DNA from: Actinomycetota bacterium
GTDB lineage: Bacteria; Actinomycetota; Actinomycetes; Actinomycetales; Dermatophilaceae
Direction: 5' to 3'
NCBI GenBank assembly: GCA_020161845.1
Contig: JAIUNK010000031.1
Location: 1 to 54,798 of the forward strand
DNA length: 54,798 nt
The position numbers and the translations under genes are program-made. The notes under the pieces are model-generated. The model saw only the letters and a list, made by a program, of their open reading frames with translations. It had not been told where the DNA came from and made no database searches. Shown here piece by piece: positions 46,577-50,175 of the stretch. How positions within the stretch are numbered: position 1 is the first letter of the stretch; every line of letters starts with the position of its first letter.

Positions 46577-46606
46577 TTGAGCTGCCCCAGGATCGTTGCC
46601 TACGCT
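46577..46606 (+). promoter_or_regulatory. Promoter for the hypothetical gene after obg
   Basis: TTGAGC (46577-46582) and TACGCT (46601-46606) with an 18-nt spacer form a vegetative-type promoter in the obg-proB interval. It argues that coding starts later than the TTG at 46577, which is the -35 hexamer itself. Confidence 0.5.
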
Positions 46607-46660
46607 CACTATCCTCCGGAACGTCGTCAAACCCAGGACGAATTCAGACCGACGCCAGGA

Positions 46661-47032
46661 ATGTCGCCATGCATGTCCGCACTGAGCACCCCTCCGAGAG
46701 GGAGGGCCCCCAACGCCCCGGCCGGTCATCGGACGCCGGGACGACATAATGATCTGGACCATCTGACGCCCGACGATCGGCGGCTCATCAAGGCGGCCAC
46801 CGGTGAGGACATCGGGGTCGGCCAGACGTCGTTGGATCGCCCGTTGTCGGCCTTTGCGATGCAGTTGGCGGTCGACCGGAGCAAGGGGCTGCTGCCCGCG
46901 GACGTGCTGGTGTCCCTGAGCTATCTCTTGCGCACCAGTGAGCGGATCGCCGCGCTGAAGGTGCCCGGCAATCCGTTCACGGGCGCGGTTCTGGATCGTG
47001 CCCTCGATTACGTGGCGGCCCGGCGTCGCTAG
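46661..47032 (+). CDS. Hypothetical protein
   Basis: About 123 residues from ATG 46661 (ATG 46673 also possible). The N-terminal ~35 residues are Pro/Arg-rich and probably disordered; the rest is helical with LTPDDRRLIKAATGEDIGVG, SLDRPLSAFAMQLAVDRSKG and SLSYLLRTSERIAAL, then a basic end DYVAARRR. No known domain recognised. It is upstream of proB and has its own predicted promoter, so need not be part of the obg operon. Confidence 0.55.
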   Translation: MSPCMSALSTPPRGRAPNAPAGHRTPGRHNDLDHLTPDDRRLIKAATGEDIGVGQTSLDRPLSAFAMQLAVDRSKGLLPADVLVSLSYLLRTSERIAALKVPGNPFTGAVLDRALDYVAARRR

Positions 47033-47133
47033 GTCCGCACCCGCGACTCGCCGCGACTCGGCTGCGACTCGCTGCGGCGAACGGTGGCCAGTGCACGGCT
47101 GGGCGCGCCGTTCGTCACCCGCCGTCCGTCGCC

Positions 47134-47139
47134 TATTCT
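47134..47139 (+). promoter_or_regulatory. -10 element (TATTCT) for a leaderless proB transcript
   Basis: TATTCT lies 6 nt before GTG 47146, so transcription should begin at the start codon; no ribosome-binding sequence is present. This supports GTG 47146 as the proB start. Confidence 0.55.
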
Positions 47140-47145
47140 GAGGCA

Positions 47146-48282
47146 GTGACCTCGCAGGAGAACGGGGCGGACGCCGTACGGGCCGCGATCGGCACCGCCC
47201 ATCGCCTCGTCGTCAAGGTCGGGTCCTCGTCGTTGACCAATGCGGACGGGATCCTGGACCGGGGCCGCCTCGGCGACATCGCCGACGCGATTGCTGCCCG
47301 ACGCCTCGCGGGGGCGGAGATCGTCCTGGTGTCCTCGGGGGCCATCGCCGCGGGCATCATCCCGCTGGGCCTGGCGGTTCGGCCGCGAGATCTGGCCACC
47401 CAACAGGCCGCGGCCAGTGTCGGGCAGGGCGCCCTGGTGGCGGCCTACACCGATGCCTTCGGGCGGCACGGGCTCACCGCCGGTCAGGTGCTGCTGACGG
47501 CCGCGGACCTGAACCGCGGCCAACATTATGTCAATGCTCGGCGCGCGTTGGCCCGGCTGCTCCGGTTGGGGGTCGTCCCGGTCGTCAACGAGAACGACGC
47601 CGTGGCCACGGACGAGATCCGGTTCGGCGACAACGACCGGCTCGCCGCCTTGGTCGCCCACCTGGTGCACGCCGATGGCCTGGTCCTGCTCACCGACACC
47701 GATGCCCTGTACGACGGCCCGCCCAGCGAACCCGGATCCCGCCGGCTGCCCTATGTGGGCGCCGAGGGCGACCTCGTCGGGGTGCGGATCGGGGGCAGCG
47801 GCAGCGGCGTCGGCACCGGCGGCATGGTCACCAAGGTGGAGGCGGCCCGGATCGCCACCGGCGCCGGCATTCCCACGCTGCTGGCCGGTGCCGGACACGT
47901 GTCCGCGGCCCTGGCCGGGCAGGACACCGGCACCGTCTTCGCACCGCGGGGCCGGCGGCCCTCCAGCAAACGCCTCTGGCTGGCCCACGCCAGCGAGCCC
48001 GAGGGCCGGTTGATCCTCGACGACGGGGCGGTGCAGGCGGTGCTCGGCGGTCGCGCCTCGCTGCTGCCCGCCGGCATCGTCGCGGTGGAGGGCGAGTTCA
48101 CGGAGGGCGCGCCGGTGGAGCTGATGGGTCGCAACGGGACGCCGATCGCTCGCGGCCTGGTCGCGTACTCCAGCGAGGAACTGCCGCGGCTGCTCGGGCG
48201 GAGCACCCGCTGGCTCGGCGAGGTGCTCGGCCCGCAATATGCTCGCGACGTGGTCAATCGCGACTACCTCGTGCTGGTGTAG
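47146..48282 (+). CDS. proB: Glutamate 5-kinase
   Basis: A 378-residue enzyme that phosphorylates glutamate in proline synthesis. The amino acid kinase domain has HRLVVKVGSSSLTNADG, VSSGAIAAGIIPLG, and the Asn-rich VVNENDAVATDEIRFGDND; GTGGMVTKVEAARIAT follows. The C-terminal PUA domain (about 290-378) is present. Starts at GTG 47146. The next gene in the pathway, proA, is 27 bp downstream but fused to an acetyltransferase. Confidence 0.96.
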   Translation: MTSQENGADAVRAAIGTAHRLVVKVGSSSLTNADGILDRGRLGDIADAIAARRLAGAEIVLVSSGAIAAGIIPLGLAVRPRDLATQQAAASVGQGALVAAYTDAFGRHGLTAGQVLLTAADLNRGQHYVNARRALARLLRLGVVPVVNENDAVATDEIRFGDNDRLAALVAHLVHADGLVLLTDTDALYDGPPSEPGSRRLPYVGAEGDLVGVRIGGSGSGVGTGGMVTKVEAARIATGAGIPTLLAGAGHVSAALAGQDTGTVFAPRGRRPSSKRLWLAHASEPEGRLILDDGAVQAVLGGRASLLPAGIVAVEGEFTEGAPVELMGRNGTPIARGLVAYSSEELPRLLGRSTRWLGEVLGPQYARDVVNRDYLVLV

Positions 48283-48309
48283 CCGCCCGGGGCGGGCTAG
48301 CGTCAAGCT

Positions 48310-50175
48310 ATGCCGTACCAGATCGCGCGCGCGCACATTCGGGACCTGCCTCGGGTCAAGCCGTTTTGGAAGGCGATGATCCAGTCCTACGTCCGGCTCA
48401 GCCCCGCCGACCTGCCGGTCCGCGATCCCGGGGAGGGGTGGGCCCGGCGGCACGACGAATACCACCAGTGGCTCAACGAGGGCGCCGGGATGATCTTCCT
48501 GGCCACGGACACCGAGCAGGACAAGCTCGTCGGCTATGCCGCCGTCAAGTTCACGGCGTCGGGGTCGACCTTCGACATGGGGGAGCGGTTCGGGGAGCTG
48601 GAGTCGCTCGCGGTCAGCGAGGAGGCCCGCGGCGAGGGACTGGGCTCGCAGCTGATCGAGGCCTGCCGCAGGGAGCTGGAGAAGCGCGAGATCACGTTCT
48701 GGTCGCTGGACGTCCTCGCGGTCAACGACGATGCGCAACGGCTCTACGAGCGGTCCGGGTTCGAGCCGTTCATGCTCAAGATGATCCGCCGCACCGACAG
48801 TCCCGCCGGCAGCCTCGCCGACCCGATGACCGGGCCATTGCTGATCACCCGGGAGGACAGCCAGGCCGACCCCATCCAGGGCCCGGCCGCCCCCGCCGCG
48901 GGCGGGGATGCACCGCTGGTCCCCACCGTTGCCGAGGCCGGCTCGGCCGCCCGGCGCGCCGCGCGACGGTTGGCCATCGCGACGACCGCCGACAAGGACC
49001 GGGCCCTGCAGGCCATGGCCGACGCTCTGCAGGCGCACATGGGCGAGATCCTTCAGGCCAACGCGCGGGACGTGGAGCGCGCCCGGGCAGCCGGCACCTC
49101 CGAGAGCACCGTCGACCGGCTGCGGCTGACCGAGGACCGGGTCTGGGCCATCGCCGACGCCGTCCGGCAGGTCGCGACGCTGCCTGATCCGGTCGGGCAG
49201 ATCGTGCGCGGCTCGACCATGCCGAACGGACTGCAGATCAATCAGGTCCGCGTCCCGTTCGGGGTGGTCGGGATGATCTACGAGGCCCGGCCGAATGTCA
49301 CGGTGGACGCGGCCGCGTTGTCGCTCAAGAGCGGCAACGCCGTGATCCTGCGGGGCGGCTCGGCTGCTGCCGACAGCAACCGGGCCCTGGTGGCGGTGCT
49401 GCGCGGGGCGCTGCAGGGGTCCGGGCTGCTGCAGGACGCGGTCAACCTGCTCGACGGCGACCACGCCGAGGCAACCTCGCTGATGCGGGCGCGGGGGCTG
49501 GTCGACGTCATCGTGCCCCGCGGCGGTGCCGAGCTGATCGCCTCGGTCGTGACCAACTCGACGGTGCCTGTCATCGAGACCGGCAGCGGCAATGTGCACG
49601 TCTACGTCGACCAGCACGCGAACCTGGACAAGGCGCTCGACATCGTCATGAACGCCAAGACCCAGCGCCCCAGCGTGTGCAACGCCGCCGAGACGCTGCT
49701 GGTGCACGAGGCCGTGGCGGCCCGCTTCCTGCCGCAGGTGCTGACGGCGCTGCACGGCGCGGGCGTCGTCCTGCACGGCGACGAGGACGCGATGCGCGCC
49801 GCGGACGCCGCCGCCGTCCCGATGACCGAGGCGACGGAGGCGGACTGGGCCACCGAATACCACGGTCTGGAGATGGCCGTGCGGGTCGTGCCCGACATCG
49901 AGGCGGCGATCGAGCACGTCTCCCGCTGGTCCTCGGGCCACACCGAGGCCATCGTCACCGAGAACCGGGCCGCCGCGCGACAGTGGACCGCCGAGGTCGA
50001 CTCGGCGGTGGTGATCGTCAACGCGAGCACCCGATTCACCGATGGCGGGGAGTTCGGCTTCGGCGCCGAGATCGGCATCAGCACCCAGAAGCTGCACGCC
50101 CGCGGGCCGATGGGGCTGCCCGAGCTGACCAGCACCAAGTGGATCGTCGACGGAGACGGTCAGATCCGCCGCTAG
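48310..50175 (+). CDS. proA: GNAT acetyltransferase fused to glutamate-5-semialdehyde dehydrogenase (ProA)
   Basis: A 621-residue single frame. Residues 1-160 are a GNAT domain: [20 protein letters not shown] (98-115) is the acetyl-CoA site and [17 protein letters not shown] (139-155) the C-terminal motif. Residues ~162-204 are a Pro/Ala/Asp-rich linker. Residues ~205-621 are complete Pro[24 protein letters not shown], catalytic Cys457 in [13 protein letters not shown], and [21 protein letters not shown]. The frame has no stop between the parts; the only internal start is ATG 48826 (Met173) with no ribosome site. TAGCGT (48298-48303) lies 6 nt before ATG 48310. GNAT function unknown. See findings. 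Confidence 0.88.

Follow-up and report, generated by a model that had tools for sequence, protein, structure and literature searches.

A GNAT acetyltransferase gene fused in frame to proA in Austwickia: a genus-level, single-origin fusion of neighboring genes that most likely couples expression rather than catalysis

The window analyzed here, a stretch of 54,798 nucleotides, is the whole of contig C16 of source genome G000, whose genus we take as Austwickia, family Dermatophilaceae. It carries a proline biosynthesis locus in which obg, a small open reading frame (ORF), and proB are followed by a gene that joins a GNAT-type acetyltransferase to ProA; a glycosyltransferase gene on the opposite strand and nadD lie downstream. 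The features at the locus are as follows.

47146..48282, + strand: proB (glutamate 5-kinase), the upstream neighbor (TIGR01027, 402.4 bits)
48298..48303, + strand: TAGCGT, a -10-like hexamer (TANNNT) separated from ATG 48310 by 6 nt; predicted to serve as the leaderless promoter of the fusion gene
48310..50175, + strand: GNAT-ProA fusion gene (ORF, Pfam, and NCBIfam matches; the same in all four genomes of the genus)
48310..48789, + strand: GNAT domain, residues 1-160, with the acetyl-CoA motif RGEGLG
48790..48927, + strand: linker, residues 161-206, with no TA dinucleotide or TANNNT, holding the block DPMTGPLL with ATG 48826
48826..48828, + strand: ATG, possible relic of an ancestral proA start, from its resemblance to the ProA start of L066
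48928..50172, + strand: ProA (glutamate-5-semialdehyde dehydrogenase) domain, residues 207-621, catalytic Cys457 (NF001221, TIGR00407)

The small ORF upstream from proB (46577-47032, + strand) has relatives at 41 to 57% identity within the clade and no Pfam match. A genome of genus g14 has an ORF in the corresponding position ahead of its GNAT gene (L074, 6023-6490); this ORF looks similar by eye only, and tblastn at 1e-6 gave no match to it. The source assembly is 0.8 to 0.9 Mb larger than those of its genus mates, has a listed contamination of 4.4%, and contains two proC genes over the cut-off (C50:83804-84586 and C28:91041-91820).

The fusion gene is a single frame of 621 codons plus a stop, starting at an ATG and containing no internal stop codon. 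Pfam places Acetyltransf_1 at residues 38-151 (61.7 bits; cut-off, 20.7) and Aldedh at residues 207-482, and the NCBIfam ProA model NF001221 covers residues 207-620 with 592.2 bits against a cut-off of 289, spanning profile positions 7-417 of 418; TIGR00407 scores 496.1 bits on the ProA domain. Cys457 lies within RPSVCNA, is aligned to the cysteine of RPGTCNA in the solved ProA 1o20, and is invariant in the alignment of the four fusions; by this alignment, it is the catalytic cysteine of ProA. The C-terminal part is thus ProA by sequence, with a full-length match over the curated cut-off and the catalytic cysteine present, and it is the sole ProA above the cut-off in the source genome, where the runner-up reaches 23.3 bits. 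It is like the solved ProA proteins (1o20, 8zok, and 4ghk) in its near-full profile match and catalytic cysteine, whereas the fusion adds to them an N-terminal GNAT domain and a linker. Residue 4 of 8zok aligns to fusion residue 209, which puts the start of an ordinary ProA near residue 206. The arrangement also recalls P5CS, the ProB-ProA fusion (TIGR01092, 7f5t), in which ProA likewise forms the C-terminal part of a two-domain protein from a fused gene; here, however, a GNAT domain takes the place of glutamate kinase at the N terminus, and ProB is a separate gene. Assignment as P5CS is rejected by score (338 bits; cut-off, 796.75), with no AA_kinase match in the 621 amino acids. The preliminary description, which had read the frame as GNAT, linker, and complete ProA with Cys457, is therefore borne out, with a linker of 46 residues. 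A sequencing error hiding a stop codon, which it had named as a possible refutation, is unlikely, since the frame is open in all four Austwickia assemblies.

Membership of the N-terminal part in the GNAT superfamily is supported by both profile (PF00583) and fold, which is typical of GNAT proteins and has many close structural matches, and it resembles RimI, Hpa2, and the polyamine and aminoglycoside acetyltransferases in these respects. It scores below the cut-off of each named equivalog that it touched: RimI was rejected (TIGR01575, 43.3 against 86.4 bits), as was MshD (33.9 against 163.1 bits). A separate RimI over the cut-off is present in each of the four Austwickia genomes, G000-G003 (in G000 on contig C55, at 100.5 bits). 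Unlike the named GNATs, this one has close relatives found only in a single Dermatophilaceae clade.

Searching 186 genomes of the family with the GNAT part gave matches in 52 at an E value of 1e-5 or better, among which 15 loci were strong (1.3e-46 or better) and the remaining matches no better than 4e-10. The strong loci comprise four from Austwickia, nine from the related genera g6 (Piscicoccus/Kineosphaera), g13 (Mobilicoccus), g55 (Agilicoccus), and g59, and two from g14. GNAT and ProA share one frame in all four Austwickia genomes, while at all nine loci of g6, g59, g13, and g55 the GNAT is a separate ORF ending in its own stop codon, followed by proA in every case (the copy at L067 is cut by the contig end) and preceded by proB in eight, proB not being on the piece of L071. 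The order proB-GNAT-proA is thus kept in five genera. The fused rows form one clade, with support of 100/99, in the trees of both the GNAT part (15 rows) and ProA (18 rows). Beyond the family, an order-wide search with a GNAT profile gave 2 of 396 genomes at an E value of 1e-12, and a scan of 84,980 species, which was not exhaustive in that it missed the g59 and g14 orthologs and G003, returned 10 GNAT relatives, all in one Dermatophilaceae clade. A phylum scan with a profile of the fusion matched 294 of 396 genomes, and among the matches listed, only that of G000 starts before profile position 165; the scan scored up to three candidates in each genome and may overlook ProA joined to a GNAT of another family. 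The preliminary description had left to such searches the question of how far the GNAT-ProA arrangement has spread; in those described here, it is found in four of four Austwickia genomes, as a single clade, with the genes separate at nine of nine related loci. We conclude that this is a real, single-origin, genus-level fusion of neighboring genes. Judged by titles and the opening parts of abstracts, the open-access papers searched yielded no report of it.

Two further observations concern these loci. At L069 (Mobilicoccus caccae), proB is matched by two overlapping segments that are not in the same frame, indicating a frameshift or an assembly error. In five other Dermatophilaceae loci (L076-L080), chosen because of their long open frames, proB and proA stand about 0.9 to 3.5 kb apart; the gap holds other ORFs with no GNAT match, unlike the compact proB-GNAT-proA order.

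The start of the GNAT gene carries the same signal throughout, with TANNNT lying 6 to 7 nt upstream at 15 of 15 loci, against a background of 42 of 1,632 same-strand ATGs in these loci, the GNAT starts included. Leaderless genes are common in Actinobacteria and are recognized by a TA signal some 12 bp ahead of the start codon (PMC3160421), and TANNNT is the mapped -10 motif of Mycobacterium tuberculosis (PMC3898074). For the separate proA genes of the relatives, whose start codons were chosen by us from listed candidates, TANNNT lies 6 nt upstream in five of nine, and a Shine-Dalgarno (SD) match of 5 to 6 nt is present in three of the other four; the proA of L071 has neither at the ATG used. 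No TANNNT was found in the four Austwickia linker regions. Near the junction in the window, six in-frame ATG, GTG, or TTG codons are present (codons 155, 158, 173 [=48826], 177 [TTG], 221 [TTG], and 236), and none of them has an SD match of at least 4 nt at 3 to 12 nt or TANNNT at 3 to 10 nt. The absence of a separate start signal for ProA, as claimed earlier, therefore holds for the window; the accompanying statement that ATG 48826 is the only internal candidate has to be amended, as there are six in-frame starts, none of them a good one. Given that TANNNT is absent from the linkers and present at the GNAT starts, proA has probably lost the start signals that it once had and is now carried on the leaderless transcript of the GNAT gene.

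The linker has one conserved block, DPMTGPLL in the window and a DPPTAPLV variant elsewhere in the genus, and the codon at 48826 is CCG in two of the four genomes. The block (MTGPLL/MTAPLV) resembles MTTPLI, the start of the free ProA of L066; MAFFT did not align the two. With moderate confidence, we suggest from this resemblance that ATG 48826 may be the old proA start. Otherwise, the linker varies in both length (46 to 64 residues across the four fusions, 46 in the window) and sequence. In the closest pair, L062 (A. chelonae) and L064, it aligns without a gap, and its differences over 60 codons number 10, 13, and 32 at the first, second, and third codon positions (p = 1.4e-4 for a test of equal shares); this concentration at the third position indicates that the linker evolves as coding sequence in this pair. 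In the same pair, dN/dS is lowest in GNAT (0.02), followed by ProA (0.056) and the linker (0.155). Synonymous sites are saturated, or nearly so, in the remaining five pairs; among these, the three that include the window, which are near saturation, have dN/dS values of 0.15 to 0.23 for GNAT, 0.16 to 0.19 for ProA, and 0.26 to 0.50 for the linker, so that GNAT appears about as constrained as ProA, and the very low value of 0.02 rests on one pair. A structural model of the fusion (mean pLDDT, 75.7; pTM, 0.54; 18 alignment rows) has residues 131-199 at pLDDT under 50. Since the model is shallow and pLDDT also drops below 50 in stretches of both domains, the low values in the linker are a weak sign that it is disordered, and domain packing cannot be read reliably from it.

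The two strong g14 loci (L074 and L075, in G069 and G016) come from 2.6-Mb genomes listed as 100% complete, and they bear most directly on the function of the GNAT. In both, the GNAT gene and its TANNNT remain in place, flanked by obg and nadD. The locus itself lacks proB and proA, and neither gene is found over the cut-off anywhere in the two genomes (best ProB, 27 bits; best ProA, 21 to 24 bits). Similarly, argC reaches only 19 to 20 bits and argJ has no match in either genome, while proC is present in both. These two organisms are possibly proline and arginine auxotrophs. In a third g14 genome, 75% complete, fragments of proB and proA lie at contig edges and the GNAT is unmatched. This pattern suggests that the genes were lost inside the genus; the missing GNAT match may be an assembly gap. 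Because the GNAT outlasts both pathways in g14, it is unlikely to act chiefly on ProA or on intermediates of the proline pathway, or to serve N-acetylglutamate chemistry.

Taken together, these results favor, at a probability of roughly 0.7, a single-origin fusion of neighboring genes in which ProA is made as the C-terminal part of a protein begun at the GNAT start, with the two domains acting independently. The ancestor would have had the order proB, a clade-specific GNAT gene on a leaderless mRNA, and proA; the GNAT stop codon would then have been lost in frame, together with the promoter and start signal of proA. With no stop codon between the two parts, GNAT translation runs on into ProA, which would now be made in fused form only, from a leaderless start, as the C-terminal part of a protein of 621 to 640 residues begun at the GNAT ATG. 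ProA would still reduce glutamyl phosphate for proline, and the GNAT domain would acetylate a target related to neither proline nor N-acetylglutamate. Such a fusion would couple expression and impose 1:1 stoichiometry; as far as sequence comparison can indicate, it most likely couples expression and not catalysis. The functional roles proposed in the preliminary description, namely, regulation of ProA, channeling, and a balance of proline against arginine synthesis, gain no support, as the orthologous GNATs are free-standing at nine of nine loci and a tie to either pathway is at odds with the two complete g14 genomes; its null explanation, a simple fusion without functional coupling, fits better.

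The rival with the closest bearing on how ProA is made holds that there are two products, the fusion and a free ProA begun in the linker or in the first ProA helix. Internal in-frame ATG and GTG codons are indeed present, and in L064 the ATG of codon 231 (window residue 212) lies 5 nt after AGGAGG inside the first ProA helix, a start that could give a slightly short ProA; in L063, codons 186 (ATG) and 213 (GTG) each have a 5-nt SD match. The L064 site is, however, at the chance rate, because 26 of 1,176 internal in-frame starts at the 15 loci reach a 6-nt SD match (8 of 207 for ATG alone), and it is one such site among 48 in-frame starts in the four genomes; we therefore do not count it as good evidence of a real ProA start. 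L062 has at the same site a GTG with AGGA only, ATG 48826 is not conserved, and none of the six window starts carries a signal. We regard two products as unlikely.

It is also quite unlikely, in our view, that the GNAT regulates or serves ProA in cis, by acetylating it or a molecule of the proline pathway, and that the fusion was selected for this. The gene order kept across five genera can be read as functional linkage, the fusion is kept in all four genus genomes examined, and GNAT is more constrained than ProA in the closest pair; against this, the GNAT persists in both complete g14 genomes with no ProA or ProB over the cut-off, the GNAT and, in eight of nine cases, proA have separate start signals in the relatives, and the linker is variable. 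A narrower version, in which the GNAT became an acetyl-CoA-responsive cis regulator or modifier of ProA or of a proline-pathway target in Austwickia after an older, proline-independent role in the relatives, is distinctly improbable; if true, proline synthesis in Austwickia would respond to acetyl-CoA supply. The idea that the GNAT is an N-acetylglutamate synthase, or is otherwise tied to arginine synthesis, draws on the existence of short GNAT-type enzymes of this kind, and we consider it very improbable: the two g14 genomes that keep the GNAT have neither argC nor argJ over the cut-off, none of its 13 PDB sequence matches is named acetylglutamate synthase (some are unnamed acetyltransferases), and ArgJ and ArgC are already present over curated cut-offs in all four Austwickia genomes, which also speaks against the N-acetylglutamate balance proposed earlier.

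Because the fusion has a single origin, and relatives still have the two genes apart at this locus, it suggests a way in which a leaderless gene can take over the gene that follows it, by decay of the neighbor's promoter and start and loss of an in-frame stop codon. It also marks a family of uncharacterized GNAT proteins, which was found in a single actinobacterial clade only and can outlast the proline genes. For annotation, Austwickia ProA is predicted to have 621 to 640 residues. Antisense to proB and the fusion lies an open frame of 1,022 codons (47029-50097, - strand), which is probably a by-product of high-G+C codon usage.
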